A DNA stretch of 64,000 bases, taken from contig NZ_CP041216.1 in NCBI RefSeq assembly GCF_020511155.1, positions 4,154,001 through 4,218,000 of the forward strand, written 5' to 3'. The notes under the pieces are model-generated. The model did no database searches. It saw only the letters and a program-made list of their open reading frames with translations, and was not told the DNA's origin. Below, piece by piece: positions 27,855 to 51,555 of this stretch. Positions within the stretch are counted from its first letter, which is position 1. Each line of letters starts with the position of its first letter. The position numbers and the translations under genes are program-made. The stretch is from Shewanella glacialimarina. Lineage in GTDB: Bacteria > Pseudomonadota > Gammaproteobacteria > Enterobacterales > Shewanellaceae.

Positions 27855-29375
27855 CTTCATAACAACCCTACCAATCTGCTGTGCCAAATACGGTGGCACA
27901 GCATTTCCTACCTGCACATACTGCTGTGTCCTATTCCCTTCAAATAAATAGTTATCAGGAAATGTCTGTAACCTTGCAGCTTCTCGCACAGTTAAACTTC
28001 TACACTGCTGTGGGTCGTAGTGTATGAAGTAATGACCGTCCTTAGAAATGTGACTAGTCACAGTCGTAGCGCACTTATTTGCAGCTTGAGTTCTGAAGCG
28101 ATCGGCATGCACACCAGAATCCCAATTTTCATGATCAGGGGCTAACTCTAACGGATAATCTCTTGCTTTAGGTGATGTACCACCACTTAACTTAGTAAAC
28201 GCAGCGCTGAAAGCATAACGAAGTAAATCTGAAGTCATGTGCCCGCGAGTAGCATGATTTAACACACAACCAGGATGGCCATCCAAATACCAGTCTTCAA
28301 GATGAACAGGTATAATTCGCTCAAGTTCTGGCAATAGAGAACTTTGACGATCTAACCCTAACATTGGTTCAAGATTTAATTTATCAACAGCACCACTCTC
28401 GAATCGCATTTTCAAAATACGTTTTAACTTTTTAGCATTTATTTGTACTTGGTTTTCCCAATCTTTTTGAATATCTTTCTGCTTAGACAAGCCACTTCTT
28501 AATGGAGGTAAATCAGACAGCACTTGCTCAACAGTTACAGCTTTCTCCATCGGATGAATGGTACTAGGTACATGGGCTATACCCTGTCGTACTCCCAACA
28601 AAATTACACGATGCCGTGCTTGAGGGACGCCATAATTTTCAGAACGAATAAGAAAGTCTGAGGAGTCTAGGTATTGAGGATCGTTTGGATCGTCGGCCTC
28701 TACAACAAGTGAAAAAACTCTATATTTAGCAACACCACTGACTTCTGTAACTAGTCCTGGATCTCTCAAATCTTCTAATATCTGAGGAAACATAACCTCG
28801 CCATCGATTTTGGCAGATAGAATACCTCGTACATTTTCCATAACAAATACATCAGGTTGTGCTATAGATAATACTTTAAGGTATTCCTTGTATAAGAAGT
28901 TTCGGTGGTCATCTTCAGCCTTGTAGTCTTTGATTCCCGCATTGCGAGAACGTCCAGCTAAAGAGTATGCCTGACAGGGCGGCCCGCCAATGACTATTTT
29001 GGGGCCTTTATGAGCTGCAACTAGTTCACGAATGCGAGTATGAATTAGCTCGTTATCTTCACCAAGAGCCCTTGGTTCTTCTAACGTTTCGTATATTGCC
29101 TCTTGAGCTTGGTGAGGGTATAACTCAAAAATCTCATTCCGAGTTAACTTCCCACGAACATAATTGAAGTAGTCTTCTAATCCGCCATCTAATTCTTTAA
29201 TTTTTCTGTAGAAGGCTCGCGTTGTTAATGTTTTATGTGCCGAAGGCTCTTTCTCGACCGATACACCAATATTGAATGGTTTGTTACCATCTTCATCTGT
29301 TACAGAAGACACACCTTCCCCAAGCCCGCCAGGCCCAGCAAAAAGATCGATTACAAGAATTTCACCAGTTTTCAT
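27825..29375 (-). CDS. DNA (cytosine-5) methyltransferase, DrmMII-like
   Basis: This 516-residue C5 methyltransferase begins MKTGEILVIDLFAGPGGLGE (motif I). It shows the catalytic PCQ in IGGPPCQAYSLAGRSRN, ENV in VFVMENVRGIL, QARHRVILLG and the C-terminal QVGNAVPPYLAQQIG. It is longer than minimal Dcm proteins, with extra sequence in the variable region that should set specificity. It is on the same strand as the DISARM-like genes but separated by about 190 bases. DISARM class 2 operons encode a C5 methyltransferase (DrmMII) that marks self DNA, so the same role is inferred. No adjacent restriction endonuclease is seen. Confidence 0.88.
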   Translation of the reverse strand: MKTGEILVIDLFAGPGGLGEGVSSVTDEDGNKPFNIGVSVEKEPSAHKTLTTRAFYRKIKELDGGLEDYFNYVRGKLTRNEIFELYPHQAQEAIYETLEEPRALGEDNELIHTRIRELVAAHKGPKIVIGGPPCQAYSLAGRSRNAGIKDYKAEDDHRNFLYKEYLKVLSIAQPDVFVMENVRGILSAKIDGEVMFPQILEDLRDPGLVTEVSGVAKYRVFSLVVEADDPNDPQYLDSSDFLIRSENYGVPQARHRVILLGVRQGIAHVPSTIHPMEKAVTVEQVLSDLPPLRSGLSKQKDIQKDWENQVQINAKKLKRILKMRFESGAVDKLNLEPMLGLDRQSSLLPELERIIPVHLEDWYLDGHPGCVLNHATRGHMTSDLLRYAFSAAFTKLSGGTSPKARDYPLELAPDHENWDSGVHADRFRTQAANKCATTVTSHISKDGHYFIHYDPQQCRSLTVREAARLQTFPDNYLFEGNRTQQYVQVGNAVPPYLAQQIGRVVMKLLESNYTRT

Positions 29376-29564
29376 TTAACTACTACTATCAATAAAATTT
29401 CCAGGCAATCATACCAGGCATAGATTTCTGAACAATCTATTTATCATTGTTCAGTCTACATAATCAGTTTATTAGCCCTGTGTTAGTAACCTACCGACTT
29501 ATACCACCACTCACTGCAGGAAAATAGAACACAATTACAAGAAATATTTTGTAGCATTTTGATT

Positions 29565-31052
29565 TTACATAAAAGTTGTTTTTCTTGCGTTTAACAACTT
29601 CAGCGATGACATTTTGCTCAGTTCACATCTTAAAAAGCTCTTTATCTCTATGATATCTGCAGCCTTAGCAGCCCATCGAAGGTAAACACCATTGTGATCA
29701 ACTTCAAACCGTACTCCTTCCTTGAGACTAGATTGTAATTGAATCAGATCAAGCGCTAACTTACCCTTATACCTCTTTTTACCAGCTTCAGTACTGAGAT
29801 TGATTAACAACAACGAAAGATTAGAACTATGCTCATCCACCAACAAACTCATTCTAAAACCTGAGTTAGGGAACACTCCCTCTATATCAAACTCCTGATA
29901 GCCATCAATAGCTCCCTTCGACTCAGTTAAAAAATCGCACTCTGATATTAAATAATTTTTCACTATCTTAGTATCATTAGGGAGGACTTCTTTTGCCTCA
30001 AGGTTAGTAGTTGATTGAGTTTCACTTTGGTAAAATTCATTATTATGTAGTGCAGCATTAAGATTCTGAAGCCATGCCCTGTTCTCACCAATGCATCCTC
30101 TCTGCTCAGAGTTGAGTAAACTAAAGCCTGAGCGTAAACTAATAAACGCTTTAGCAGCTTTATATACTAAAGGCCCGATCTCTAAAATATTCTTTTCTTT
30201 TAACGCTCTCAAATAACTAAACTCAGGGTTTAACAGTACTAAAATTATCGCTCTTAATACGATAGAACCATCTTCAGGATCTATAAATAATTTGTCAGGG
30301 ACATTTTCACTATTTACAAAAGCTTGTGCTAGAACTTGCCATTGAGTATATTTTTTTTGACTAGCGATATTCACTGGCACTAGAGTGTTTAATTGCTGCA
30401 GCACCTCGTTGGCATTCCATCCAGCATCTAAACCATTGTCCAGACACAGCTCTATGAAGTGCTCTAATACGGAAATATCAATTTCATCATTACTTTCAAC
30501 ATTCATTAAAACTCTAATTAAATCAACCTTTGAATACCCAGGTCTGAGTATTGAAGTCACATTGTCTAATTGAGGGTATTCTATTAACCAATCATAAATT
30601 AACGCCATGATGCCATCTTCTAACATCATCATATTCACAAAATCAATCTTAGAAACTGGTTCAGGAGGGGTTATCTCTAGTACCAGAGTATTCACATCGC
30701 CAACAACAGAGGTAACAACCTCACAATCAAGTGATTCGACATTAAAATTTTCATAACTACTGTCAAGAAATGCCTGTCTCAATTCTGCGTCGGGAAACCA
30801 AACTTTTTCTAAGTTTTTGAATGAATATGCATTTTTATTTTCCTTACACGATAATTCGAGTAAGAGGAAACCGTCATTCATTGCTCCACTATTAACAACT
30901 GCTTGGCTATCAGACCAGTTTAGAAGAGTTTTCTGATTAACTTTAGCGCAAAGTGAAGAGAGTATGACCTCATATGCAAGTACATATCGAGAGAAATACT
31001 TTTTAGGTATTAATAAGTAAGAGGATTTTTCATTCATTAAGTAACCAGCCAT
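29565..31052 (-). CDS. unknown protein of the DISARM-like operon
   Basis: I do not recognise this 495-residue protein. It is soluble, leucine-rich and without visible motifs of a nuclease, methylase or ATPase. In particular no H-x-K-x4-D phospholipase D motif is present, so it is not an obvious DrmC. Segments such as PKKYFSRYVLAYEVILSSL, ILRPGYSKVDLIRVLMNVES and VDHNGVYLRWAAKAAD may help later searches. It overlaps the stop of the UvrD-like helicase gene by one base (TAATG), implying that the two act together. DrmE-like or adaptor roles are possible but unproven. Confidence 0.6.
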   Translation of the reverse strand: MAGYLMNEKSSYLLIPKKYFSRYVLAYEVILSSLCAKVNQKTLLNWSDSQAVVNSGAMNDGFLLLELSCKENKNAYSFKNLEKVWFPDAELRQAFLDSSYENFNVESLDCEVVTSVVGDVNTLVLEITPPEPVSKIDFVNMMMLEDGIMALIYDWLIEYPQLDNVTSILRPGYSKVDLIRVLMNVESNDEIDISVLEHFIELCLDNGLDAGWNANEVLQQLNTLVPVNIASQKKYTQWQVLAQAFVNSENVPDKLFIDPEDGSIVLRAIILVLLNPEFSYLRALKEKNILEIGPLVYKAAKAFISLRSGFSLLNSEQRGCIGENRAWLQNLNAALHNNEFYQSETQSTTNLEAKEVLPNDTKIVKNYLISECDFLTESKGAIDGYQEFDIEGVFPNSGFRMSLLVDEHSSNLSLLLINLSTEAGKKRYKGKLALDLIQLQSSLKEGVRFEVDHNGVYLRWAAKAADIIEIKSFLRCELSKMSSLKLLNARKTTFM

Positions 31053-32569
31053 TAGATTTCCCTATATTCCATTAACCCTGAACCTTCACTTGGTAAATGC
31101 TCTAATATGGGAGCCTTACTCTTCTCATCTTTAAGATACATTAATACTAATTCAGAACGAGCCCGAGAACACACTACATACATATTCATCTGAAATGTTA
31201 CTAACTCTGTATCACTAAAAGAAAAGTTTTGTAGCTCTGGGATAAATACCGTATCAAACTCCAACCCCTTGCAACTTCTTCTATTCAATATAGTAATTAC
31301 GCCTTGCTCATCAAACTTTAAAGTTTCACTTGTTTTCGGATCAAAGCTCGAATATGTCTGTACCTTATAATTTGGTAGCTCAGCAATCAGCTTATCAAAA
31401 TAAAACCGACGATCATCGTCTGAGTCTACAACTATAGCAACCTCTTGCGCACCTCTAAATTTCAAGTAGTTCTTAATATACATTACTTGCTGCAATTGTT
31501 CTTTTACAGCAACCAGCTTAGGTTTATCACCTGTTTTTTCTGGTATATCTGGCGTTCCCGTTGGCAACCCAACATAGAAATACTGCGCTAGCAATGCTAT
31601 TGGTTTTGTATTTCTAAAGTTCTGAGTCAAGCGGAACTCATTTTCTTTCTTTATCTTCAGGCATTTACGAATATCTTCCAAAGATGAATTTTGGCCATCA
31701 TGTAAACGCTGATTTTCATCCGCTAAAATTGTTATCCCACCATTAATCATGCATCGGCTCGCACCAAGCAAAAATTTAAAAAAATCAGGAGGGAAATCCT
31801 GAGCTTCATCAATAATTAAATGTCCCCAATCTATAAACTTGTCTGAGTCTAGCTCTAGGTATTGGTCAAGCATAAGCTCCCAATCGTAATGCCATTTCTT
31901 TAATTCTGGAGGATCAAACTTCCCACCAAAACCTAACCATCTCTCAAATCTTTCAAAATTATCATCTAATTGTTGTTTAGTAATAAACCATCTTTTTTTT
32001 TGCTGATCGAAGTTTGCTCCAGCAGCCTTGACCTCAACCCGCTCTTCATAGCAGGGTTTCAAATAAATTTTATCTTGAGCTTGGAGTATCGGTATAAACT
32101 CTGGCCATTTAGAGAAAAGTTTACTATCCGCTTCATAGACATCACGGTTAACAAACCACTTCTTTAATACTCTGTCAAATCGGCCACCAGCAGCTTTTAC
32201 TTCATCTTTATCACTAAATGGATTATTCAAAAAAACCTTATCAGATTTAGATGTAGCTTCTGAGTCATCAGCTTCTCTCTCTATACAGTGCAGTTTCCAC
32301 CATTCAGGTAACCAGCTATGCATCGTTTTTGAATTTACATCACCATCAATCTCAGCGGCTATATTTTGTGTATAACTTCTCAAAACACGGTTATACATTA
32401 ATACTACTGCTGTTATTTTTTTACGGGATAAAGCTTGAGCCCTCAAAAAAGCGATCACGGTTTTACCAGTTCCTGGAGGACCAGAAACCATCACACTACC
32501 TGAGATAGGAGCATCTTCAAAAACATCCTGTTGCTCCTCGCTTATTTGACGAGCATTCGGCATTCGCAT
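31052..32569 (-). CDS. UvrD-type superfamily 1 helicase with two DUF5710-like inserts
   Basis: This 505-residue helicase has Walker A GPPGTGKT (30-37), Walker B IIDEAQDF (252-259), motif III-like ITILADENQRL, QNFRNT (motif IV) and a C-terminal NRRSCKGLEFDTVFIPEL. Between motifs I and II it carries two similar short modules: KVFLNNPFSDKDEVKAAGGR (from 111) and KIYLKPCYEERVEVKAAGAN (from 167), each followed by KKWFV or KRWFI. These match the pattern of DUF5710. The gene is joined by TAATG overlaps to drmB upstream and the 495-residue gene downstream. Confidence 0.82.
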   Translation of the reverse strand: MRMPNARQISEEQQDVFEDAPISGSVMVSGPPGTGKTVIAFLRAQALSRKKITAVVLMYNRVLRSYTQNIAAEIDGDVNSKTMHSWLPEWWKLHCIEREADDSEATSKSDKVFLNNPFSDKDEVKAAGGRFDRVLKKWFVNRDVYEADSKLFSKWPEFIPILQAQDKIYLKPCYEERVEVKAAGANFDQQKKRWFITKQQLDDNFERFERWLGFGGKFDPPELKKWHYDWELMLDQYLELDSDKFIDWGHLIIDEAQDFPPDFFKFLLGASRCMINGGITILADENQRLHDGQNSSLEDIRKCLKIKKENEFRLTQNFRNTKPIALLAQYFYVGLPTGTPDIPEKTGDKPKLVAVKEQLQQVMYIKNYLKFRGAQEVAIVVDSDDDRRFYFDKLIAELPNYKVQTYSSFDPKTSETLKFDEQGVITILNRRSCKGLEFDTVFIPELQNFSFSDTELVTFQMNMYVVCSRARSELVLMYLKDEKSKAPILEHLPSEGSGLMEYREI

Positions 32570-34365
32570 TAGATCCCCCCCTCACTAACACGCTTCATGA
32601 TGCTACTAAATAGCCCTTGTTCTTTTCCGTCACCGATGACTAACTTGCGATCTAGTAATAGATTATTATGTTCGCAACTGGTTTCAGATACTAATGCACA
32701 AGAATGACAAGCGGCTTTATTTAACCCCATGACACCCTGAGTATCCAATTCGCTACATACCGGATCATTAGAGCACCAATTGGCAGTTTCAAGTGCAGCA
32801 ACAATAGCAGGGAACAATCTGTGCGCCTCCCCTTGTTGTACTAGTCCTCCCAAGCTACCTTCTGAATCACCATCTGCGGTATAAATTAATACACCGGCTT
32901 GCCCTTCTGCTGCATAAATCCGTTCTCGTAAAGAACCGCTTGAGTATCCACTTTCAAAACTTAACTGACGAATAATTAAATGAGCAAACGTATGCAAAGC
33001 AATGAACTTTGCTGAAGGTTCTGGTAAGTAAGTAGAAGTAACATTAGCGTAGCGACTTAACACACCGGATAACCTAGGTATTAAGAATTCACTAGACGCA
33101 TATTCCCAATCCTCAAGTGCAGTTTGGTCAAACTCAATGAATACTCCTTCTCCAAACACCTCACAAGCAGGCAACCATGGTTTTTGTTTTGAGTCACCAT
33201 GCATCAAAACAGGATTATCATCTGGCTTAATCCTTTCAAAACCACAGAATGCTCGAACCTCTCGAAGTTTATCTAATAAGACAACTTTTGATATTAGACT
33301 GTGACAGCCAAATGTTTCCTCTCCAGCAAAATTAGCAATTCGAGCTTTAAAGTTGTCAGTCTGCTTATCTTCGATGTCAGTAGCACTTAACACCTCCCAC
33401 TCTGCAACTCGTAGGTCTTCGTCTTTGGGGATACGGAATACTCTAGGAGGTTCTCCGCCTCCTTCTACTGCGCCCAAAATTGCATCAATGGAAAAACCAA
33501 ACTCTTCCGCTAAATACTCAGCATAGAGCTTAACTGCGCCTTCTTTACCACGTTCTCTAGCTCTTAATAGATTGTCATAGTCTTCACAACCTTGGATTTT
33601 ATCAATAATACTGTTACCTATTGACGATGATTCATAAGGTATATCGAGAGCTGAACGAATTATTGGGTAGTAAAGGTTACTCGCACCACGCTGAAGAACA
33701 TGTAATGGTTCATCACACTTTTCACTGTAATCTTTATTAAACTCCCAAGGCTGCTTATTTGAACACTTAATTTTAAGGGCGCCATCATCCATTATTCTTG
33801 CTAATGAATTTTTTGCACCACAATGTTTACAATGTACCTCCAAAGCACCCAACCCACTTCCCATATCTTTTCTAGCTTTAAAATATAGATCTGTCTTTGG
33901 GGATGAACATTTTGATTCCCCCCCCATGTGTGCCCAACGATCCCATGGTATATCTTGAAGGTGTCCTTTGTTACAAGCCGCGACGAATCGCATTGGAGCT
34001 AGGGATTTATTATTGCAGTTTTTGTTTTGACAAACTGGTACTCCACTTTCATTTAAAGGGTCATCTTTATGCCAACGCCCTAAATGTCTGCATTTTGGAC
34101 AAAACATCCAAGCAGGAAAGCGCACTGTCATTAATGCATTTTTTTTATGAACGTTTTCCCAACGACTCTTAAGGATAGGTGGTTTTTTGAGTGACCAAAC
34201 CCCCGCCTCTCTTGTTAAACGCTCTAGCTTTATCTCATCTAGATTTTTAGGCCAGTGTTTAATATCCATAAGAATCAGGGACTCATCACCAATATCAATG
34301 ATTGAACCCGGGCCAAAAGGACTAATTAATTGAGAGCTACGATAACTACGATTAGAATCAGTCAT
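32569..34365 (-). CDS. drmB: DISARM protein DrmB (DUF1998)
   Basis: This 598-residue protein has several zinc-ribbon cysteine clusters: CPKCRHLGRWHKDD with VCQNKNC (about 90-120), CKHCGAKNSLARIMDDG, and C-terminal C-x2-C elements. The hallmark DUF1998 segment HTFAHLIIRQLSFESGYSSG (about 458) is present. The N-terminal SYRSSQLISPFGPGSIIDIG is typical of DrmB. In DISARM, DrmA and DrmB form the DNA-binding translocase complex. The ATG at 34365 follows AGAGGT and overlaps drmA by eight bases; a GTG at 34374 is an alternative. Assignment is confident at the family level. Confidence 0.88.
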   Translation of the reverse strand: MTDSNRSYRSSQLISPFGPGSIIDIGDESLILMDIKHWPKNLDEIKLERLTREAGVWSLKKPPILKSRWENVHKKNALMTVRFPAWMFCPKCRHLGRWHKDDPLNESGVPVCQNKNCNNKSLAPMRFVAACNKGHLQDIPWDRWAHMGGESKCSSPKTDLYFKARKDMGSGLGALEVHCKHCGAKNSLARIMDDGALKIKCSNKQPWEFNKDYSEKCDEPLHVLQRGASNLYYPIIRSALDIPYESSSIGNSIIDKIQGCEDYDNLLRARERGKEGAVKLYAEYLAEEFGFSIDAILGAVEGGGEPPRVFRIPKDEDLRVAEWEVLSATDIEDKQTDNFKARIANFAGEETFGCHSLISKVVLLDKLREVRAFCGFERIKPDDNPVLMHGDSKQKPWLPACEVFGEGVFIEFDQTALEDWEYASSEFLIPRLSGVLSRYANVTSTYLPEPSAKFIALHTFAHLIIRQLSFESGYSSGSLRERIYAAEGQAGVLIYTADGDSEGSLGGLVQQGEAHRLFPAIVAALETANWCSNDPVCSELDTQGVMGLNKAACHSCALVSETSCEHNNLLLDRKLVIGDGKEQGLFSSIMKRVSEGGI

Positions 34366-37300
34366 TTTTTTCACCTCTAACTAGGATATGAGTTTCTGTA
34401 TCTACACTACGCATGGAGTTAAGAGTCTTCCATGCGCCATCATGCTTATCACTATCAAAAGACTTAAATAAAGGTTCAAATTGTTTCCCTGCACCACCAT
34501 TCTCATACAATTGAACCGGAGATTTTTGACTGTTAACCCGCTCACTCCATTGGTCGATTAGTGAATCCAAGTAATCAAATACCTTTTGTTTCTCCCTTTG
34601 GTCCATACCAACCATAGAGGCTTTGATACGCTCTTTAAACACGCCTAGAATATTTATAAATTCTGCAGAGTCTTTGTTAAAATATCTAACACTTTTATTT
34701 TCACGTAGATAACCAGTCATTCGAACAACAGCTATTAATGAAGCGTGTAATGCACGCTCTACTGCAGGCATAGCCCATGGAGTTACACTAGTTGGTTCAA
34801 CGTAGCGATAGAGCGCTTGGTGATAACTTTTGAAAGATTCATAATGGGAACGATCGCGAGGCTTGGTAGCTGAGTACTGTGTAAATACGATGCCTGGGGG
34901 TCTCTTTTTACTACGACCAACACGGCTTGATGCCTGAATATACTCGGAGGTAGCTTTAGGCTGGCCAGCAATAAGCATCATACCTAATCGTCCAATATCA
35001 ACACCAACTGATATCATGTTTGTACAAGGTAAAATGTCTATCGCTCCGTCAGGATGAGTAACTCCTTTATCTAGTTTAGCTAAGACTTCCGGAATACGAG
35101 GGCCCTTAACGTTAGCACTAAGCTCCTCAACCAGTTGAATATCTCTTATCTCTTTTTTATCTTCCGCAATAACACCGACTCGGGCTGGAATATCATCTCG
35201 AGATAAGGTCATCGTTTTACCTAACTCTCTACGGCTATTATGATATATAGGCAATGTCCAATAGCTATCAAGTATTAAATCCTTAAAACCTAGGTGTTGT
35301 GGTGCTTGAATTAATGAAGCACCAAGCTGAACTAACCCCGTTTGCCCTGTATGTCCTGCAGGCATAACCCCAACATAAAGACGACCCGGATTATCTTTAT
35401 CCTCTTTAGAAAAAAAGGAGTCTGACTCATCAGTACCTGAAGGAGGGAAAATGGAGACATTTCTACCAAATAGCCTATTCACCTGATAATTGGCACTTCG
35501 AATTGTAGCAGTAGCGGCTATAATCTTTGGTTTAGCACCTAAAATCTCCATGATGCTATCAAATCCTGCTTCATAAATTCCGGCTATTGTCCCTAAAGGC
35601 CCTGAAATCAGATGCAACTCATCCTGTATGATTAAGCCCGGTGACCGCACCTTCCCATTGCCAAAAAATGCAGAGGCTTCTGACTTCCATGTTAAACGAG
35701 CGAATTTATCTATTGTGCCAATCAACAAGCTCGGTGGCTTGCAATACAGAGCATCATCTACTACTTGGACAGGGAGATGTTCATGAAACTCGCATGTATC
35801 ACTTGGGCACATAAAGCTAAAATGACTATGAGGATCACTCTTAACACCATAATCACAATTATTTTCAGAATGGTGTGCTGGAAAAATGGAAGTGCCGCAC
35901 CAAGGACAAACCTGCAACTGAAAAGGATTTTCTGGCTGATCTGATTCTCTCTCCCTGAGATAGGCTTCGTGTGCATCCTGATACGAATTAGGCGAGCTAG
36001 CAGCACCGACCCAAAGCCCTAGACTAAATGTTTCAGCTCCTAGACTCTCTGGTTGATTTTGCCGAAGAATTTCAAGAGCACAAATTAAACTACCTGCTCT
36101 TTGAAATTGCTGCGATGTCAGTAGCCTTAATGTATAACGTTTAATGACAGAAGTACCACCGCCCATTTCTCCAAATTTTAAACGACGATAAATCATTTCC
36201 CAAGCAGCTACAGCTAAATAAGCTTCAGTTTTCCCACCACCAGTAGGGAACCACAGTAGATCTACATCATCATGAGAGGAAGATAAGTGTCCTTCCTTAT
36301 CTGGTATAAGTGACTCCAATACTAATAATTGGAATGCCAATTGGAAAGGACGCCAATTAAACTTGCCTAATATTTCACTGCCAAAATATTCTGGTGTTTC
36401 ATAGCCCCAGTTTCTACTTTTACTACTACCAGAATATTTACTACCTGAGTGAATCATTTGCATTAGCATCGCTTTATTCGCCAATCGAAATGCTTTCATA
36501 GCTGGCTCATCAGCGGCTAAGCGTTCTATGCCTGAATACATGCGCTTTGAAGCGACCCTAAGTCTTAAAATGATTCTCTCTTTGGCTGAGAGATAACGCG
36601 GGTCTAATAACTCAGCCTCCAATTCATCTATCCAATGGCTGTATACATCTGCGAGTTCTGTATAGTCACTTAACAACTCAGTCGCTGATACATTATCAAT
36701 ATCTGCGATTCGATGAATGCTTAGCATTTCACCAGCGAGACTACTGACTTTTGTTTGGTCTAACTCAGTAGTAAACCCTTTGACTTCATAATGCGGAATA
36801 ACTTCGGTAATTAATGTTGTTGGGGTATTACTTTTAGTCGGTATATACCAGTCTACGGCAACACCATGGCCTACAGCCCATGGAATTCTTTTGCGATAAG
36901 TTAACGCCAATTCTTTTTGTTCATCATCCAGTTTGAATCGATCACTACTTGGATACTCAATAATACTACCCGCTGTAGTAGCAACCTTAATTTGGCACTG
37001 ATACAGACAATCACTAGGATCTAGTTGTTCACCAGACTTAGATTGATTTGAAACTGCAATCGTTATGATTTTTCCTGATACATAGGGACGAATAGCAACA
37101 TCTAAACGGGCACCATTGTTAAAAATGGATTTTTGCAAACTGTCTGTCGCAGAAAGGTCTACTATACTGACATGATGTAAGGGCTTACGTTGCCACTCTT
37201 TCTGCTGGTCTTTGCTATATCCACCAGCTGTAATTTCTATTTCGAAAATAGATGAGCTTTGAGCTGCAAACGACAACGCCATAGAAGATGGTTTGAAGTC

Positions 37301-37510
37301 ATTGCTTAATGCCTCTGTTGTAGAGTCTTCACTATCACTTTCGTCAAGCTCGTCCCTTAAAACTGCTGGAGGGAAAAGAGTACCTGCGAGATAACGCTTA
37401 TGAGGAGCATCTGACAATAACTCATGCTCTCCATTCCATGGGCCCACTAACTGCTTGCTAACGTAATTAAGCAACTGTTGACGAGCGCTTTCAAAGTCTT
37501 CCATTGACAT
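34358..37510 (-). CDS. drmA: DISARM superfamily 2 helicase DrmA
   Basis: This 1050-residue SF2 helicase shows Walker A LWFPTGGGKTEAYLAVAAWE (about 423), a DELH box IIQDELHLISGPLGTIAG (about 632), motif III AATATIRSA and motif V/VI SVGVDIGRLGMMLIAGQPKA then SSRVGRSKKRPPG (about 863). A zinc-ribbon insert lies near 535 (CPWCG ... CPSDTCEFH). The DELH version of motif II and length near 1000 residues fit DrmA. The gene is the promoter-proximal gene of the operon drmA-drmB-UvrD-like-unknown. The start at 37510 has GAGGGG upstream. Confidence 0.88.
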   Translation of the reverse strand: MSMEDFESARQQLLNYVSKQLVGPWNGEHELLSDAPHKRYLAGTLFPPAVLRDELDESDSEDSTTEALSNDFKPSSMALSFAAQSSSIFEIEITAGGYSKDQQKEWQRKPLHHVSIVDLSATDSLQKSIFNNGARLDVAIRPYVSGKIITIAVSNQSKSGEQLDPSDCLYQCQIKVATTAGSIIEYPSSDRFKLDDEQKELALTYRKRIPWAVGHGVAVDWYIPTKSNTPTTLITEVIPHYEVKGFTTELDQTKVSSLAGEMLSIHRIADIDNVSATELLSDYTELADVYSHWIDELEAELLDPRYLSAKERIILRLRVASKRMYSGIERLAADEPAMKAFRLANKAMLMQMIHSGSKYSGSSKSRNWGYETPEYFGSEILGKFNWRPFQLAFQLLVLESLIPDKEGHLSSSHDDVDLLWFPTGGGKTEAYLAVAAWEMIYRRLKFGEMGGGTSVIKRYTLRLLTSQQFQRAGSLICALEILRQNQPESLGAETFSLGLWVGAASSPNSYQDAHEAYLRERESDQPENPFQLQVCPWCGTSIFPAHHSENNCDYGVKSDPHSHFSFMCPSDTCEFHEHLPVQVVDDALYCKPPSLLIGTIDKFARLTWKSEASAFFGNGKVRSPGLIIQDELHLISGPLGTIAGIYEAGFDSIMEILGAKPKIIAATATIRSANYQVNRLFGRNVSIFPPSGTDESDSFFSKEDKDNPGRLYVGVMPAGHTGQTGLVQLGASLIQAPQHLGFKDLILDSYWTLPIYHNSRRELGKTMTLSRDDIPARVGVIAEDKKEIRDIQLVEELSANVKGPRIPEVLAKLDKGVTHPDGAIDILPCTNMISVGVDIGRLGMMLIAGQPKATSEYIQASSRVGRSKKRPPGIVFTQYSATKPRDRSHYESFKSYHQALYRYVEPTSVTPWAMPAVERALHASLIAVVRMTGYLRENKSVRYFNKDSAEFINILGVFKERIKASMVGMDQREKQKVFDYLDSLIDQWSERVNSQKSPVQLYENGGAGKQFEPLFKSFDSDKHDGAWKTLNSMRSVDTETHILVRGEKND

Positions 37511-37998: not shown

Positions 37999-38205
37999 AT
38001 GAGTAAAATATCAGTCATAAACCTTCCACATGAGGAAACTTATCTTGGATTTGGTATTTGTATTGAGCCTAATCCAGATCAGTACAACGAGGGCTTTGCA
38101 TGGTCAATAAGCAAAGATGATGAAGAGTATGATTGCGGATTAGATTTTGAAGTTCAGCAGGCTCTTGAAGCCGCTTATAAGGCTATCGAAAAGTTAATTA
38201 GCTAA
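37999..38205 (+). CDS. small acidic hypothetical protein
   Basis: This 68-residue protein, MSKISVINLPHEETYLGFGI and onward, ends in a helical FEVQQALEAAYKAIEKLIS. It is acidic and soluble, with an AGGAAG ribosome binding site before the ATG. No family is recognised. Its stop overlaps the stop of the convergent XRE gene by four bases. It lies between the DISARM-like and HEPN-MoxR-vWA modules. Confidence 0.5.
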   Translation: MSKISVINLPHEETYLGFGICIEPNPDQYNEGFAWSISKDDEEYDCGLDFEVQQALEAAYKAIEKLIS

Positions 38206-38444
38206 TCGACAGCCTTAACCATTTTTAGGTGGTTAAGGAGTGTTACAACAAATTCTGATTGACTGACACCTAAAGCCAAAACGATCGTCTCTAATGAGTC
38301 CAAAGTAATATTTCGAACACCACGCTCTACTCCTGAGATGTAAGTTCTATCTATCCCTGACTTCCTTGCCAATTGCTCTTGGCTCAAACCAGCTTCAAGA
38401 CGTAAGCTTTTCAATGTAGATGCTGTTACCTGTCTAAAAATCAT
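38202..38444 (-). CDS. XRE family helix-turn-helix regulator
   Basis: This 80-residue protein is little more than a Cro/C1-type helix-turn-helix: LKSLRLEAGLSQEQLARKSG IDRTYISGVERGVRNITLDS LETIVLALGV. It probably represses or modulates the neighbouring defence genes. It lies downstream of the HEPN gene on the same strand with a 150-base gap that contains an inverted repeat (38526-38555), so it may have its own promoter. Confidence 0.85.
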   Translation of the reverse strand: MIFRQVTASTLKSLRLEAGLSQEQLARKSGIDRTYISGVERGVRNITLDSLETIVLALGVSQSEFVVTLLNHLKMVKAVD

Positions 38445-38596: not shown

Positions 38597-39130
38597 CTAA
38601 GCTTGATCTATCGCAAGGTCAGTAGTTTCAACTAACTTCTTAAAAAATGTCAGGCACTTTTTCATGTCCGGGCGGCTGACTAGATGGGTTGCTTGCGTGT
38701 CATTGACCGAACGATGGACAGCTTCGCCTCTTTTCTTAATCCATTGGTTCAATTTAGATTTGGCTTGTTCAGCATCGCCATCAATCCAAGTCCATTTATC
38801 TGTAACATCATTGTGTAGAAAACGTTCAAACATCACCTTAGTATTTTTCGAGTTCGGTGTATGAAAGTACCTCAATTCCCTTTCTAAGGTAGATGTAATG
38901 AAACTTGCTACTTTTGAACCTTCCAGAGTCCGTAAATCAGCGGTTAACCTTTCTTCAATGACATCTTCCACATAGGTTTCCCACGCAGTTAACGTCATGA
39001 TCAATGCAGCTCTTTTAAGCTCTTCAGGCTCTCTTTCTCTACCCTCCAGCTGGTTTAAATGATCGTAGGCCTGCAAAATTCGTTCTGCGTCTTGAATTGC
39101 GTTCTCAAAATTGTCTCTCGCTTTAGACAT
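38597..39130 (-). CDS. HEPN domain protein, candidate RNase effector
   Basis: This 177-residue all-helical protein resembles the RiboL-PSP/MAE_28990-type HEPN family. It has a first-helix polar motif LTAWETYVEDVIEERL (about 47-62) and the RNase signature R-x4-H at R134-GEAV-H139 (KKRGEAVHRS). HEPN proteins with this motif are metal-independent endoribonucleases, often toxins in defence systems, acting as dimers. The ATG follows AAGGAG by five bases. It lies 16 bases after the vWA gene on the same strand, so it is cotranscribed with the MoxR-vWA pair and is the likely effector. RNase activity is inferred from the motif. Confidence 0.78.
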   Translation of the reverse strand: MSKARDNFENAIQDAERILQAYDHLNQLEGREREPEELKRAALIMTLTAWETYVEDVIEERLTADLRTLEGSKVASFITSTLERELRYFHTPNSKNTKVMFERFLHNDVTDKWTWIDGDAEQAKSKLNQWIKKRGEAVHRSVNDTQATHLVSRPDMKKCLTFFKKLVETTDLAIDQA

Positions 39131-39146
39131 AAGTACTCCTTTACCT

Positions 39147-40727
39147 TTAATGTTTATTATTTTGAAGATCTAACCAGCTTGAAAACAGATGTAGAGGGTC
39201 ACAGATTTTGTCCATAGGTGACAAACTATCTCCAATGACAACACCATGAACGCTCATTGCGCGTTGCTCTTTCCTGTTTTTAATTTTTCGAGATAAGCCT
39301 GACGACACTGTAAACTCGCCATCGCTTACCAAAAGAATGTCAGCCTGCAGCCATTGCTTCTCATCACTTCTTTCTAACGCCATATTGAGAGGGCCTTCAA
39401 CGTCTGTGCCGCCACCGAATGACATCGACAAAAAGAGGATCATTTGCTCAAGCCCGGCTTTATCAGGTGTAAGCTCCATTTCCTTTACTTCGCCTTTACT
39501 GCCAAACAAATAAACAAAGCAGGCTCGTTTTTCTTTCTTTGCAACACTGATGCACTGCAGAACAAGCGCCTTAGCAACATTCTCTGGTGTTCCAGTCATA
39601 GAACCAGAAGTATCTAAACACACAATCATAGGACCACGATTGCGATTTAGCTTATTTCCAGAATGGCTTTCTTTGGCATCTTGTTCTTGCTCCGTTAGCT
39701 GGGTCACCATCTCAGTACCTTCAACGGCATAACTCAACAGAGCATGTTCAGCTCTGCGAGCATGCCATAATTTTTTAAGTACTGGGTGGCCGAAAAAAGC
39801 AGCTTCTTGTGGCAGCATTCGACTAATAGAGTCTGAACGAGTAATACCTTTGGTTTCCATCGGCACTAAGGGAGTGGTAATTTCGACATCATGGCGAAAA
39901 GTCATGCTCATACGTGAAATAATTTCTTCAATAATTGGCTCTCCCTCTGTATCTTTCATTCTTCCCAAGGTTTCAATTACTTCACGCAGTTGTGGGATCT
40001 GCTTTACAATCTTTTGCAGCCTAACTAGATTCATCCAGCCATGACTTTGAAACACTCCTTGAGATAGATCCCAACCAAGACCGGTCACTAATCCCAAATC
40101 AGTAAAAACCCCCTCTAACTCTTGCCATATTTCTAGCCTTTCAGACCAGATACTAGGAAGCTTAAATAATTGTCCACCAGCACTGTTTACTAGCTGAATC
40201 CAAGCATTGAGCTCAGCTTGTATTTTAATATCTAAGCGTTGAGCATCATTAAGTGCTAAATGCTTTTGTTTTTTTGAAGAACGGCGTTGCTGTTGAATTG
40301 CTTCCAATTCTAGTCGTAATTGCTCCAGAGCTTCCTTTTCTGCAATGATCGCCAACTGTCGTGATAATGTTGATGTCTGTCGCTGTAAGCTCCCTAGCTT
40401 AACTAATAGGTCACTAAGCAAAGCATCGGTTACCTCTGGGTTATCTTTACAATAGCGCGCCACACCAGATGCCTTTATTGAAGTCGCGATTTCTTGTTGT
40501 ATAACCTCAGGGAGCCATGGGCAAGGTAAAGATATCTCTTCTGCAGCCAACAGTTGTGAACGTAACAGTGCTATTGACTGGCAGCGAGTTGTTAAGTCGC
40601 CACCCGATAAAGTAACCACCGCAGGTAACAACTCATTCGGTAATAACTCAATGACAGCAAACTGATGGTCTAACTGCGCCAACAATCCGACCGAATGCTT
40701 CGTCATCGTTGGATTAGATTCACTCAC
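39147..40727 (-). CDS. vWA domain protein, ViaA-like
   Basis: This protein of about 526 residues has a helical N-terminal region (1-340, with a coiled coil near QRRSSKKQKHLALNDAQRLD) and a C-terminal von Willebrand A domain. The MIDAS motif D-x-S-x-S is visible in IVCLDTSGSMTG (about 371), with the downstream FGGGTDVEGP threonine and VSDGEF aspartate. The architecture is that of ViaA, the partner of the RavA ATPase in E. coli. The GTG at 40727 has AAGG upstream and overlaps the MoxR gene by eight bases; a GTG at 40736 is also open. Confidence 0.85.
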   Translation of the reverse strand: MSESNPTMTKHSVGLLAQLDHQFAVIELLPNELLPAVVTLSGGDLTTRCQSIALLRSQLLAAEEISLPCPWLPEVIQQEIATSIKASGVARYCKDNPEVTDALLSDLLVKLGSLQRQTSTLSRQLAIIAEKEALEQLRLELEAIQQQRRSSKKQKHLALNDAQRLDIKIQAELNAWIQLVNSAGGQLFKLPSIWSERLEIWQELEGVFTDLGLVTGLGWDLSQGVFQSHGWMNLVRLQKIVKQIPQLREVIETLGRMKDTEGEPIIEEIISRMSMTFRHDVEITTPLVPMETKGITRSDSISRMLPQEAAFFGHPVLKKLWHARRAEHALLSYAVEGTEMVTQLTEQEQDAKESHSGNKLNRNRGPMIVCLDTSGSMTGTPENVAKALVLQCISVAKKEKRACFVYLFGSKGEVKEMELTPDKAGLEQMILFLSMSFGGGTDVEGPLNMALERSDEKQWLQADILLVSDGEFTVSSGLSRKIKNRKEQRAMSVHGVVIGDSLSPMDKICDPLHLFSSWLDLQNNKH

Positions 40728-42255
40728 ACAGTTCACCTTCTAAAGCCTCATCTTCAGATACATCCGAAACCATGTATTTAGACTCATCTTCTATCGGTAA
40801 CTTGGCAAATCCAGCCTCTAACTTTAATAACTGCGACAATTGATGTTGAGTATGTGAACGTGCATTTTCAAGGCTGGCCGTGACCTGAGGGAGTAATGCC
40901 TTGTCTAACCAAATGTGGTCATTGAATATTGATGTAGCTGACTCTAGTTGTGTATTTAAAGCTTCAATATGTGATTGAGCAGAATTTTTTAAATCACGTA
41001 CTTGTTGCAATTGGCCTTGAATATGAAATTCAGAGTAAGTAACAGCTTCCATTGCTGGTAAGTAGTCCTTTTCAATCATGATAGGAGTATTGTCTATATT
41101 GCTTCTGTACCGTTGTAATGCTCTAGTACTTTCCTCATTTTCCTCTTTATCCCAATAAAGCAATTTCCCCTCTTTATCAGTCTTCTGCACTTCTCCTGAA
41201 GACTTAATCGTTTCATTCCCTTTAGCATTAATAAATAAAGGTTGCCCCTTAGCATTATTCTTTTGTCTTTGCTGCGTTTGATCAAACTTCAATTTATGAT
41301 CCCAGACAGATATTAAACTAGTCAAATTTTTATGAGAAAACTCACCGTTTATAGCAACAGCGTTTTCGTAAACATTTTTTAGCCCTTGAAGTTCTTCCGG
41401 TTTATTCCAGAGGCAATGAGGCAAAATCCATGCATCATAATTACTGACTTCATTCATCCCAGCAGTAAATGCTGACACTTTCATTAATTTAATAACTTTT
41501 CGCCAGCGACGGTCTGAAACATAAATATCCTCTCGCTGCAAATGTTCTCTAAACGCCTTACATAACTCAATAACAGAAGGTGGCAGTAACACCTTTTCAG
41601 ACAACTTCTGAACTTCTTTGAGATCTTCTAACCTTAGGCGTACCTCCAACTCAGGGTCAAAAGCAGAATCCGATAGCATCAGCAAGCTATGAAAACCCTC
41701 ATTCGATACTGGTGCAACAAAACTTCGCAGCATAAACCTGTCATAGAGCGCAGAGAGTTCCTCTCCTTCAGGTAATTCATTGCTTGCCGCAACAACAGAA
41801 ATTAGAGGGACTGGGTATCTACGATTACCATTGTCAAACTCACGTTCGTTCAGCAGTGTCAGTAAACTATTTAAAATTGCGCTATTGGCTTTAAATATTT
41901 CATCAATAAATGCAACTGAAGCTTCTGGCAAGTAACCACTGGTTAACCGATTGTACCTATCCTCTTCCAGAGCCTTAATAGACAAGGGACCAAATAGTTC
42001 CTCTGGTACAGAAAAGCGCGTTAACAAACGCTCAAAGTAACTAGCCTCGACAAAAACACTTTTTAAACGCTTAGCTAATTCACTTTTTGCTGTGCCTGGT
42101 GGCCCGATTAACAGCACATGTTCACCAGCTAATGCCGCTAATAACATTAGCTTCACTTGCTCATTACGTTCAAGCAGCCCCTTGTTCATTTCATTAATTA
42201 AACTCGCTATTTTTTCTTTGCGTGAAAGCAGGCTGATTGGTGTTTGATTTTTCAA
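40720..42255 (-). CDS. MoxR/RavA-type AAA+ ATPase
   Basis: This 511-residue AAA+ ATPase of the MoxR/RavA class has Walker A GPPGTAKS (51-58), Walker B VAFIDEIFKANS (about 113), sensor-like SVVAASNELPEGEELSALYD RFMLR, and a long C-terminal helical region (380-490). RavA-ViaA-type pairs are thought to act as chaperone-like or complex-remodelling machines. The start is a TTG with AAGGAT eight bases upstream. It is the first gene after a sigma-54-type promoter at 42313-42329 and is coupled to the vWA gene. It is more divergent than housekeeping RavA and sits in an island. Confidence 0.87.
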   Translation of the reverse strand: MKNQTPISLLSRKEKIASLINEMNKGLLERNEQVKLMLLAALAGEHVLLIGPPGTAKSELAKRLKSVFVEASYFERLLTRFSVPEELFGPLSIKALEEDRYNRLTSGYLPEASVAFIDEIFKANSAILNSLLTLLNEREFDNGNRRYPVPLISVVAASNELPEGEELSALYDRFMLRSFVAPVSNEGFHSLLMLSDSAFDPELEVRLRLEDLKEVQKLSEKVLLPPSVIELCKAFREHLQREDIYVSDRRWRKVIKLMKVSAFTAGMNEVSNYDAWILPHCLWNKPEELQGLKNVYENAVAINGEFSHKNLTSLISVWDHKLKFDQTQQRQKNNAKGQPLFINAKGNETIKSSGEVQKTDKEGKLLYWDKEENEESTRALQRYRSNIDNTPIMIEKDYLPAMEAVTYSEFHIQGQLQQVRDLKNSAQSHIEALNTQLESATSIFNDHIWLDKALLPQVTASLENARSHTQHQLSQLLKLEAGFAKLPIEDESKYMVSDVSEDEALEGELCE

Positions 42256-42302
42256 AGCTTATATCCTTATTTAAAGTGACAGTCCGATACAATTTCCGGA
42301 TT

Positions 42303-42322
42303 AATCTAGCTATAGCTAGATT
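42303..42322. promoter_or_regulatory. perfect 20-bp palindrome at the MoxR promoter
   Basis: AATCTAGCTATAGCTAGATT is its own reverse complement. It overlaps the -12 element and the expected transcription start of the sigma-54 promoter, so a bound protein could block transcription. The ligand protein is unknown; the nearby XRE protein is one candidate. Confidence 0.6.
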
Positions 42323-42329
42323 CATGCCA
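42313..42329 (-). promoter_or_regulatory. sigma-54 (-24/-12) promoter for the MoxR-vWA-HEPN operon
   Basis: On the minus strand TGGCATGAATCTAGCTA has GG and GC separated by exactly ten bases, as in the consensus TGGCACG-N4-TTGCW. It lies 58 bases upstream of the TTG start and directly after the gene for a sigma-54 activator, which supports the reading. Confidence 0.7.
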
Positions 42330-42345
42330 ATGTATAACGAACTAT

Positions 42346-43821
42346 TTATATCCCTAGTTTTTTAACTCTATTACTCAATGTTTGATGATTGTTGTAACCC
42401 AGTAATTTTGCTACTTTACTTTTATTCCCATCATGCAGCTCTAGCGCTTTGACAATATAATGGCTCTCAACTTCCGCTAATATGCTATTTATATCAAAGC
42501 CTTGATGAATATCCCGTTCTAAAAGAGACTCTTGTTTACCGTCCATAATAAATAAGGCTTGTCGCATTTCTGCTTCATCGATGCAGTCTGAACCTGACCA
42601 CAATGCAGCTCGTAGTAGCGTCGCCTTCAATTCCCGAATGTTGCCAGGCCATTTGTGTTCTTTGATAACTTTTTTTGCAAGATCGGAAATATTTTTACCT
42701 TGTAATACCGAATGCTCTTTAGCCAAGGTCTGCATTAGTGAGTCAACCAAAAAGTCTAAATCACCTTGTCGCATTCTTAATGGCGGTAATTGCAAGACGC
42801 CTATTGCGACTCGATAAAACAAGTCTTCACGAAACCGACCATGGGCAACTTCATTAATCAAATTTTTATTGGTTGCCGTGATCAATCTAAAATCGCTACT
42901 TTGCTCATCAGAATCCCCTAGACGGGTATACTTTCCATCTTGCAGTACTCTAAGCAACCTGACTTGAACAGCAGCATCCAATTCCCCAAACTCATCTAGA
43001 AATAAAGTTCCGTTATGAGCTTGCTCAAATACACCTGTTTTGTCTGAAACGGCTCCAGTAAAAGCCCCCCGCTTATGACCAAAAAGTATTGAATCAATAA
43101 GCTCTGTTGGGAAAGCTCCGCAGTTAACAGCAATAAAGGCCTTGTCTTTACGGGTGCTGGCATTGTGAATGGCTCTAGCAAACATCTCCTTACCAGTACC
43201 GCTCTCGCCATAAATAAGTACTGGAACATCCTGTTGTGCCAATATTTGTGCCTGGGACTTCAAGACTTGCAAATTAGACTCAATTGTAAGGATGTCATCA
43301 AAAGCAGAATCTATAGGCGCTTCTAATCTGGCTAGGTTATTTAATTCGGATTGGTTTAATTTAGTAACAGCAGGAATATATTGGGCAGATAATTTAAAAG
43401 GTATATTAATGACTTGCACTCCCTGCTCTTTAGAAGCTTGATAAAAAGTGCAAGGGAAACGTGTTTTACCCAGCAAAACCCAAATAGCCTGCATAGCTGG
43501 GGTACCAGGGCTTAGTAAAATACTTAAGTCATAATCGGACTGCACAACTTCTTTCAATAATTGCTCTGCAGCAATATAAATGTCTTCATAATCGATTGGA
43601 GATAAAAGCTTGGCTTTGCGTGCATTAACCTTACACTTCACCCGTTCTGACAGGAGTGATACATACGGTCTTACGTCTTCATCACTATAATTATAGATAA
43701 GTTCAATAACATCAAATTCAGCGGCTTTAATCGTTGTCCAAATAGGACCAGTCATCTGCCCTTCAGACATATTTAGGTCATTTCCACCAATCCAACTTAC
43801 CAGTAATCTTTTTTTTTTCAT
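42346..43821 (-). CDS. sigma-54-dependent activator with CARF-like N-terminal sensor (RtcR-like)
   Basis: This protein of about 491 residues has three parts. The N-terminal 180 residues resemble a Rossmann-like CARF domain: KRLLVSWIGGNDLNMSEGQM, then LSILLSPGTPAMQAIWVLL with an SPGTPxM loop. The AAA+ domain has GESGTGKEMFARAIHNAS, the sigma-54-contacting GAFTGA loop (about 255) and TLFLDEFGELD. A Fis-type helix-turn-helix ends the protein (GNKSKVAKLLGYNNHQTLSN RVKKLG). This layout matches RtcR, which senses damaged-RNA ligands. It lies directly upstream of the MoxR-vWA-HEPN genes on the same strand. The start is uncertain (43821, 43848 or 43869). Confidence 0.82.
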   Translation of the reverse strand: MKKKRLLVSWIGGNDLNMSEGQMTGPIWTTIKAAEFDVIELIYNYSDEDVRPYVSLLSERVKCKVNARKAKLLSPIDYEDIYIAAEQLLKEVVQSDYDLSILLSPGTPAMQAIWVLLGKTRFPCTFYQASKEQGVQVINIPFKLSAQYIPAVTKLNQSELNNLARLEAPIDSAFDDILTIESNLQVLKSQAQILAQQDVPVLIYGESGTGKEMFARAIHNASTRKDKAFIAVNCGAFPTELIDSILFGHKRGAFTGAVSDKTGVFEQAHNGTLFLDEFGELDAAVQVRLLRVLQDGKYTRLGDSDEQSSDFRLITATNKNLINEVAHGRFREDLFYRVAIGVLQLPPLRMRQGDLDFLVDSLMQTLAKEHSVLQGKNISDLAKKVIKEHKWPGNIRELKATLLRAALWSGSDCIDEAEMRQALFIMDGKQESLLERDIHQGFDINSILAEVESHYIVKALELHDGNKSKVAKLLGYNNHQTLSNRVKKLGI

Positions 43822-44027
43822 CCCTAAGCCCAATTCGTATCTATCCATAGTGATCACTACTAGCGTCATTCACATAGATTCATCTAACAGTCAGCAAATC
43901 TACAAGTGCCCTACCATTTATAAGTGATAGGACTAATAATTAAAATATCATGCGGTTACAGCATTTTTCAATGTGAACTTGACGAAATTGATAAGGAGCA
44001 ACAAATTAGATTTAACTCGAAATTAAT

Positions 44028-44216
44028 TTACTCCATCAAATCCCGCTCTTCTATCCTTTCTAAGATCCAATCTTGCACTTCACTTTCTACCCAAGCAACA
44101 CTTCTTTTGCCAAGCTTAGCCGGTTTTGGAAAGGTTTTATCAGCAATGTATTTATAAATAGTCGAACGTCCTAGCCCAGTACAATCCATCACAGCTTTCA
44201 GTTTAATTAGTCTCAT
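44028..44216 (-). CDS. AlpA family phage/island regulator
   Basis: This 62-residue AlpA-like DNA-binding protein (MRLIKLKAVMDCTGLGRSTI then YKYIADKTFPKPAKLGKRSV) has a MerR-like winged helix. AlpA proteins commonly activate integrase or excision genes in P4-like islands. A paralogue on the other strand lies at 46099-46317 and shares FPKP-KLGKRSVAWVESEV. Confidence 0.88.
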   Translation of the reverse strand: MRLIKLKAVMDCTGLGRSTIYKYIADKTFPKPAKLGKRSVAWVESEVQDWILERIEERDLME

Positions 44217-44360
44217 TGTGAATTCCTCATGTTTGATTCACAACATGAGTTGAGCGAGTAAAAATTTAGATGGATGCTGATTACCCCAACACGATTCCAA
44301 CAATTTTCAGATATATATCACTCCTGTGCATAAGCCATTAACTGACTAAAGGAGACTTTT

Positions 44361-45455: not shown

Positions 45456-45541
45456 CAAACCCTTATGTACCAAGGGGTAAGAGCGACAGACCCCTCTGAA
45501 GTACCCAAAACGCCCGGATAGCTCGAATAAGGAACTTGAAC

Positions 45542-46102
45542 ATGGCGGAAGTACAAGCAATCAAAAAGCATGAAACCATTCAACTCATTGGCCATTTATT
45601 AGAAATGCGCTGTAGTAAGCAAATGGCCGACATTTGGAATATCGGCCTTAATCTTGCGCTACGGATTTCTGATTTACTGTCGATTCAATTTAACGATATT
45701 CAAGGAGACCGATTAGTTGTCAAAGAAATGAAAACCGGTAAGCAAGCCAACATTAAACTGAACCAAAAGGTATTGGCTCATATACAGCAAGTCAAACGTA
45801 ACCATCCACACCATATCTACCTATTCCAATCCTTTCGTAATCAGCAATCTAAAAGCATTAAGCCCAGACCGTTAACAAGGCGTGCTGTGGCTAAAGCATT
45901 TGCGTTAGTTGGTGAAGAGTTAAAGTTAGCACTAGGCACTCACTCCATGAGAAAGACCAGGGGCTATCATCTCTACCAAAACACTAAAGACATTGGCCGC
46001 GTAATGAAGATGCTCAGGCATAGCTCTGAGGGCGTTACATTACGATACATTGGGATTACCCAAGACGATGTAGACCAAGACTTTCAGGAGCTTGAATTAT
46101 GA
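45542..46102 (+). CDS. small tyrosine recombinase (catalytic domain only)
   Basis: This 186-residue tyrosine recombinase consists of little more than the catalytic domain, a size like FimB/FimE. Catalytic residues are visible: R in LNLALRISDLLSIQF, H-x-x-R in LGTHSMRKTRGYHLY, H in MLRHSSEG and Y in VTLRYIGITQDDV. It lacks the arm-binding domain of the main integrase. It overlaps the downstream alpA by four bases (ATGA). It may perform excision or inversion, possibly at the inverted repeat upstream; this is inference. Confidence 0.87.
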   Translation: MAEVQAIKKHETIQLIGHLLEMRCSKQMADIWNIGLNLALRISDLLSIQFNDIQGDRLVVKEMKTGKQANIKLNQKVLAHIQQVKRNHPHHIYLFQSFRNQQSKSIKPRPLTRRAVAKAFALVGEELKLALGTHSMRKTRGYHLYQNTKDIGRVMKMLRHSSEGVTLRYIGITQDDVDQDFQELEL

Positions 46103-51243: not shown

Positions 51244-51555
51244 TAAGTTTACCTAGGTCATGGCTCTGTTTTCAGTGTAAAGGCTAATAAAAAACTTTAA
51301 TAGACTCTATAAAAACCAATTATCAGGAAGTTGATCTTAAGCACGGGTTATAACAATTTAACTTGAAATACACAGACATGAAGACTTTAAACTCGAACTA
51401 GTTAGCCTTAAAACTGAAGCGTTTTGATATGAAGGTTTTTATGCGCAATAGTGTTTGAAACTGTATCAGCTAATACAAATATTCTAGCGATAGGCATAAA
51501 AAAACCTGCCGCGGCAGGTTTTAATTAATACTTAACGAGCACTAATAAAACAGTA
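51244..51555. other. intergenic region between CoA-transferase and rpoH
   Basis: About 310 AT-rich bases contain the rpoH terminator (51501-51522) and the presumed promoter of the CoA-transferase gene. No other element is recognised. Confidence 0.5.
51501..51522 (-). terminator. rpoH terminator
   Basis: AAAACCTGCC and GGCAGGTTTT form a near-perfect hairpin (AAAACCTGCCGCGGCAGGTT, then TT) followed by T on the minus strand, 34 bases after the rpoH stop. Confidence 0.88.

Follow-up and report, generated by a model that had tools for sequence, protein, structure and literature searches.

A predicted sigma-54 promoter at the 3' end of a CARF activator gene, ahead of a MoxR-VWA-HEPN defence operon and overlapped by a lineage-specific palindrome

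Related activator-promoter systems and the window locus

The arrangement described here resembles the RtcR/rtcBA system of E. coli, in which a CARF-AAA-HTH activator likewise adjoins a sigma-54 promoter. In the portions of the literature drawn on here, RtcR is described as binding an upstream activation sequence (PMC9650030) and as being controlled via its CARF domain, with a link to damaged tRNA (PMC9650030, PMC7790460). The activator in our window, by which we mean the whole 64-kb stretch of DNA that was analysed, falls in a different subfamily (PADLOC RtcR_PspF2, not RtcR). It matches RtcR_PspF2--CARF_AAA_HTH with an E-value of 2e-204, residues 21-507 aligning to positions 2-480 of 481, so that the whole model with its CARF, sigma-54 AAA and Fis HTH parts is covered, and Pfam recognises the sigma-54 interaction and Fis-type HTH domains. 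Unlike the rtcBA promoter, that of the window immediately follows its activator gene, in the same orientation, and its cargo consists of defence genes rather than genes of RNA repair.

RtcR-like activators beside restriction-modification genes (Makarova 2014, PMC4012209) show the same architecture and association, and sigma-54 activation of the downstream genes was predicted for them; the part of that work considered here does not locate a promoter, and the cargo in the window is instead MoxR-VWA-HEPN. A further likeness is to the RtcR-CoCoNuT superoperons of defence genes (Bell 2024, PMC11090510): these are long, lie on one strand and are headed by an RtcR homologue, their parts are exchangeable and include YprA/DUF1998 helicase genes, and sigma-54 activation was again predicted for them. 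However, the genes scanned here include no recognisable CoCoNuT, and PMC11090510, in the part considered, gives no mapped promoter or enhancer sites. Among the main texts of open-licence papers, we found none that locates a promoter at the regulator stop codon or a GTAA dyad. The window promoter is a new instance of the predicted kind, and the palindrome that overlaps it is incidental. The published prediction that defence genes are turned on by an adjoining CARF sigma-54 activator thereby gains a precise, testable promoter position in many bacteria and ahead of many types of cargo.

The cargo itself shares the bpMoxR and VWA pair with the MoxR-VWA ternary conflict systems (Kaur 2020, PMC7159879; PMC8195603). 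While both of these genes are present, the third conserved gene encodes a free-standing HEPN_RiboL-PSP protein and not the VMAP, iSTAND, TERNS3 or beta-propeller component of those systems, and the text of Kaur 2020 (PMC7159879) makes no mention of RtcR, sigma-54 or DISARM. The MoxR gene has a TTG start preceded by AAGGA at 42264-42268, in a start region that is conserved in the orthologues. The block regulator-MoxR-VWA-HEPN is conserved in five congeneric relatives, with HEPN proteins 82-90% identical. Beyond the XRE gene, on the same strand, 27825-37510 carries genes for DrmMII, an unassigned protein, a UvrD/SLFN-like protein, DrmB and DrmA. The drmA, drmB and drmMII genes are recognised with E-values of 1e-197, 9e-84 and 1.4e-96; there is no match to DrmC, the PLD nuclease, among the genes scanned, and the UvrD/SLFN-like and unassigned genes stand in its place. 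These DISARM-type genes are probably a separate module. None was found in the five fetched same-genus loci, some of which end soon after the block, so the core cargo is taken to be MoxR-VWA-HEPN, and DISARM as the promoter's primary cargo was ruled out on the same ground.

On the other side of the locus, a small minus-strand ORF at about 44029-44217, just upstream of the activator gene, begins MRLIKLKAVMDCTGLGRSTIYKYIADKTFPKPAKLGKRSVAW and looks AlpA-like by eye, and an integrase-like gene lies at 45536-46102. Together they are consistent with a mobile island.

We consider it likely, from sequence comparison, that the feature at 42314-42329 is the sigma-54 promoter of a MoxR-VWA-HEPN defence operon, partnered with the CARF activator encoded upstream, and that the palindrome has no conserved role. 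The observations behind this reading are the conservation and position of the motif, the family membership of the proteins, the exchange of cargo and the non-conservation of the palindrome.

Table 1. Coordinates of the features in the window
Feature	Position	Strand	Basis
Sigma-54 promoter (almost certain), -24/-12 element TGGCATGAATCTAGCT	42314..42329	-	Sequence, orthologue invariance, position in relatives
Predicted transcription start (+1)	42303..42303	-	Placed 12 bases downstream of the GC cytosine
Perfect 20-bp palindrome, this genome only	42303..42322	.	Sequence, genome search, orthologue comparison
CARF-AAA-HTH sigma-54 activator (RtcR_PspF2 family), presumed activator of the promoter	42346..43869 (listed ORF; may begin upstream of the true start codon)	-	Profile match, domains
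bpMoxR AAA+ ATPase, first gene of the operon	40720..42255	-	PF20030, E 3.9e-61
VWA-domain protein, second gene	39147..40736	-	PF13519, E 1.9e-9; adjoins MoxR in relatives too
HEPN_RiboL-PSP protein, putative RNase effector, third gene	38597..39130	-	Domain match; conserved in five congeneric loci
XRE-type HTH protein, small gene	38202..38444	-	Domain/profile match
Weak candidate activator site TGTAACCGCATGATATT	43944..43960	-	Upstream of activator gene; orthologous position

The promoter motif and the palindrome over its -12 element

Read on the minus strand from 42329 to 42314, the element has the form TGGCATG-N4-TAGCT (spacer AATC), i.e. GG-N10-GC with flanks of the TGGCAC/TTGCW type. In TGGCATGAATCTAGCTA (42329 to 42313) the GG occupies 42328-42327 and the GC 42316-42315, and inspection confirms that the two are exactly ten bases apart, as a sequence-only reading of this DNA had stated. 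With the GC cytosine set to -12, the predicted +1 falls at 42303. The motif is imperfect (TAGCT for TTGCW, CAT for CAC) and scores 13.1 of a maximum of 18.8 bits with a hand-made sigma-54 matrix. In 400 kb sampled from this genome, a sample that also provides our palindrome counts, sites of at least 13 bits have a density of 0.0175 per strand-kb, so that about 0.002 such sites would be expected in the 90-nt gap between the regulator and MoxR genes. Promoter and palindrome lie in this gap or at its edge, and both genes and the motif are on the minus strand. The host genome has one rpoN gene. Upstream of the activator gene itself, a search for a sigma-54 promoter gave only two weak matches.

The same reading had described a perfect 20-bp palindrome, AATCTAGCTATAGCTAGATT, overlapping the -12 GC, which is also correct. 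When the homologous intergenic regions are aligned, the check that it proposed, the two elements behave differently. The promoter is unchanged letter for letter in the three nearest orthologues (L268, L266 and L267, whose regulators are 91%, 87% and 84% identical to that of the window), and its core TGGCATGAATCTAGCTAT is invariant in the four closest sequences, whereas the palindrome is missing from all orthologues examined, including the sister L268. The palindrome spans about -19 to +1 relative to the predicted start and thus would not be part of the sigma-54 transcript. It has no second copy anywhere in the host genome (4.46 Mb) when up to 3 mismatches are allowed. The window contains two perfect palindromes of 20 bp or longer and the 400-kb sample three, where Markov-simulated sequence yields 0.6 per 400 kb; such palindromes are therefore not rare for a scan of 64 kb, and this one is unusual, yet not extraordinary for a scan of the whole window.

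The left arm belongs to the promoter and is retained in the orthologues L268, L266 and L267; at the position of the right arm they carry TTACAGCTTC, TTACTGGTTC and TCACTGGTTC, respectively, against TAGCTAGATT in the window. All ten dyad positions pair in the window, compared with three, five and five in these orthologues and four in each of two deeper relatives, so the symmetry of a palindromic repressor operator is not kept (3-5 of 10 pairs). The tree joins the window and L268 as sisters (support 0.999), with L266 and L267 outside, and gives the window a terminal branch of 0.05 substitutions per site. Relative to the orthologue consensus, five of the ten right-arm bases have changed, against 8/70 in the surroundings. 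All five changes repair mismatched pairs and none of the five matched pairs is altered; the analytic probability that five random substitutions would all complete pairs is about 1.6e-5. Clustered changes that copy the reverse complement of the adjacent arm are the mark of a template switch, and they resemble the quasi-palindrome mutations (PMC3820800, PMC8604942) by which an imperfect inverted repeat is perfected, although here we infer the origin from four orthologues rather than from observed mutation events. The palindrome probably arose on the window's branch in one step, by a template switch within a quasi-palindrome with 5/10 pairs, and is most likely a copying accident without a conserved role.

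The pattern would look no different if selection had favoured a symmetric operator in this lineage alone. In this alternative, the promoter would be blocked, in no other genome than this one, by a repressor sitting on -12/+1, be it the XRE protein or the activator. The perfect symmetry over 20 bp, its uniqueness in the genome, the fact that all five changes favour symmetry and the XRE gene downstream, which is related to control proteins, would fit such an operator, and the presence in L268 of two further perfect palindromes ahead of its activator gene would fit a quick turnover of symmetric operators. However, no orthologue has the palindrome, not even the sister locus L278, where the XRE gene persists at 92.5%; the genome lacks a second copy of the site; and no dyad enrichment at the -12 element is found across the family. 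We therefore regard a lineage-specific operator as unlikely. The orthologue comparison gave no evidence of the XRE protein acting on the palindrome, and together with the family dyad profile it rules out a conserved operator. Sigma-54 closed complexes are silent without their activator, so a repressor is unnecessary for keeping the operon silent. The earlier suggestion of a repressor site or RNA-level element that silences the operon thus finds no support, and with this misleading palindrome cleared away, a hunt for a repressor there would probably find nothing.

A role of the palindrome in RNA is very unlikely. It would require that a hairpin in read-through transcripts from the activator gene terminates them or hides the MoxR start, leaving only sigma-54 transcripts productive. 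The isolated 20-mer does fold to an 8-bp stem (predicted -8.2 kcal/mol), and stems with arms of 9 and 7 bp, unrelated in sequence, occur near this position in L032 and L112. The site is, however, some 48 nt from the start codon, the stem is followed by no U-run, and the predicted junction energy is the same without the palindrome (-14.1 in the window, -13.1 to -14.6 in the orthologues), the last two of which rule out a terminator or RNA element. A conserved operator or RNA element at the palindrome is not supported.

The stems in L032 (7-26 after the stop codon) and L112 (10-29 after it) are of unrelated sequence and cover the -12 element in the corresponding promoters; between L112 and L113 there is a G-to-A difference at paired positions with a matching change, a pattern with too few cases to judge. 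The two perfect palindromes of L268, ACTTAACTGATTATCAGTTAAGT and CTTAGCACTTGCAAGTGCTAAG, lie some 44-79 nt ahead of the activator start in the alignment and are not among the dyads reported for the window. Palindromes seem to come and go quickly in these regulatory stretches. Elsewhere in the window, a perfect 22-bp palindrome, AAAACCTGCCGCGGCAGGTTTT, stands at 51501-51522 between an acetyl-CoA hydrolase-type gene and a gene for a sigma-70-family factor, where it is likely a bidirectional terminator.

Position of the promoter among relatives and exchange of its cargo

Full-length relatives of the regulator were gathered from genome contigs, plasmids, whole genomes and viral contigs, giving a conservation set of 65 non-redundant loci that was scanned from -20 to +60 nt of the regulator stop codon with a threshold of at least 9 bits. 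The sigma-54 motif is present there in 51 of the 65, about 90-fold above the shuffled expectation of 0.56; the opposite strand gives 2/65 and coding sequence 1/65. At a threshold of 13 bits, 36 loci retain it against 0.06 expected. With the regulators clustered at 60% identity, the motif is found in 22 of 33 clusters within the same span and in 28 of 33 within +170. That the imperfect motif is a chance match, with the operon depending for its transcription on the promoter of the activator gene or some other sigma-70 promoter, is highly improbable given this conserved position, the low genome background, the invariance among close orthologues, the neighbouring sigma-54 activator gene and rpoN in the genome. 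On these comparisons the motif is almost certainly a promoter, and the claim that the MoxR gene is preceded by a sigma-54 promoter is supported.

The position of the motif holds while the cargo behind it varies, from type I restriction and MoxR-VWA-HEPN to VWA/phosphatase/kinase triads and one type III-B CRISPR operon. Before redundancy removal, the first gene after the promoter belongs to a large HsdR-like restriction cluster in 44 loci and is MoxR in 8, and other loci begin with a VWA/PP2C/kinase triad. The regulators of L117 and L118 are 80% identical, and one faces type I restriction, the other MoxR-VWA-HEPN. In L051, a Victivallales MAG, the promoter's cargo is a type III-B CRISPR operon (Cmr2-Cmr3-RAMPs). 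Since the cargo differs behind the same arrangement, the promoter travels with the regulator and not with the cargo.

In L051 (6986-15573), the RtcR_PspF2-type activator directly precedes the Cmr2/Cmr3/RAMP genes, with a strong sigma-54 motif 8 nt after its stop codon; it is the single locus seen with this arrangement, and cyclic oligoadenylate could be the signal for a CARF activator placed next to Cas10. At G079:C1:1547771-1565835, a restriction-type copy of the switch is followed, some 15 kb further downstream and on the same strand, by a VWA homologue (52% identical), which suggests a superoperon uniting both cargo types.

Proposed mechanism and candidate activator site

We propose that the switch might operate as follows, where activation, ligand and looping are inferred. 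E-sigma54 would wait as a closed complex at 42314-42329 with the operon off. The CARF domain of the activator would sense an infection-linked ligand, possibly cleaved RNA ends by analogy with RtcR, whereupon the activator, released by this ligand, would assemble, hydrolyse ATP and open the promoter, either through looping from sites that precede the activator gene or from sites elsewhere. Transcription from near 42303 would then yield MoxR, VWA and the putative HEPN RNase. Regulator and promoter, the latter at the 3' end of the former, probably form one portable switch before exchangeable defence cargo. It is argued in the part of PMC11090510 considered here that HEPN RNases can give RNA ends similar to those linked to RtcR, so that positive feedback is conceivable.

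A candidate for the site at which the activator binds is GTAA-N6-TTAC. This dyad occurs 25 times in 42 kb of non-coding sequence upstream of the regulator gene, a count that includes related loci more than once, compared with twice in 113 kb of coding sequence, and the sites are often tandem with a spacing of 19-20 bp. Dyads lie upstream of the activator gene in L117, L121, L124-L126, L161-L167, L191 and others. Where the promoter is further from the stop codon, the dyad stands in the intervening stretch: L116, L188 and L189 have it at -78 relative to the -24 element, and L191 has a tandem pair at -134/-114; both placements are at a usual enhancer distance. Exact sites near either end of the gene are found in 6 of 33 clusters, against 0.30 in shuffles. 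A recognition-helix histidine (HQTL/HQVL) is present in all six site-bearing clusters and missing in 24 of the 27 site-less ones (Fisher p 8e-5). This tie to a single recognition-helix residue and the upstream enrichment are why we read the dyad as the candidate binding site. For most loci, binding there would imply action over the 1.5-kb length of the regulator gene and perhaps repression of that gene as well. An in-gene near-match at stop-353, common to many loci, was set aside because it falls on a conserved peptide.

More tentatively, and with rather less confidence than even odds would allow, the arrangement could be a portable, cargo-independent infection switch in which tandem GTAA-N6-TTAC enhancers ahead of the regulator gene control, over its full 1.5 kb, the promoter at its far end, and CARF ligands made by the cargo amplify its expression. 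If so, the feedback ligands would be RNA ends cut by HEPN or, with the type III-B CRISPR cargo of L051, cyclic oligoadenylate.

The clade of the window has the recognition-helix histidine, yet no good copy of GTAA-N6-TTAC. The best-scoring, though sub-threshold, site of this kind in L268, L266 and L267 falls at the position that corresponds to 43944-43960 of the window.
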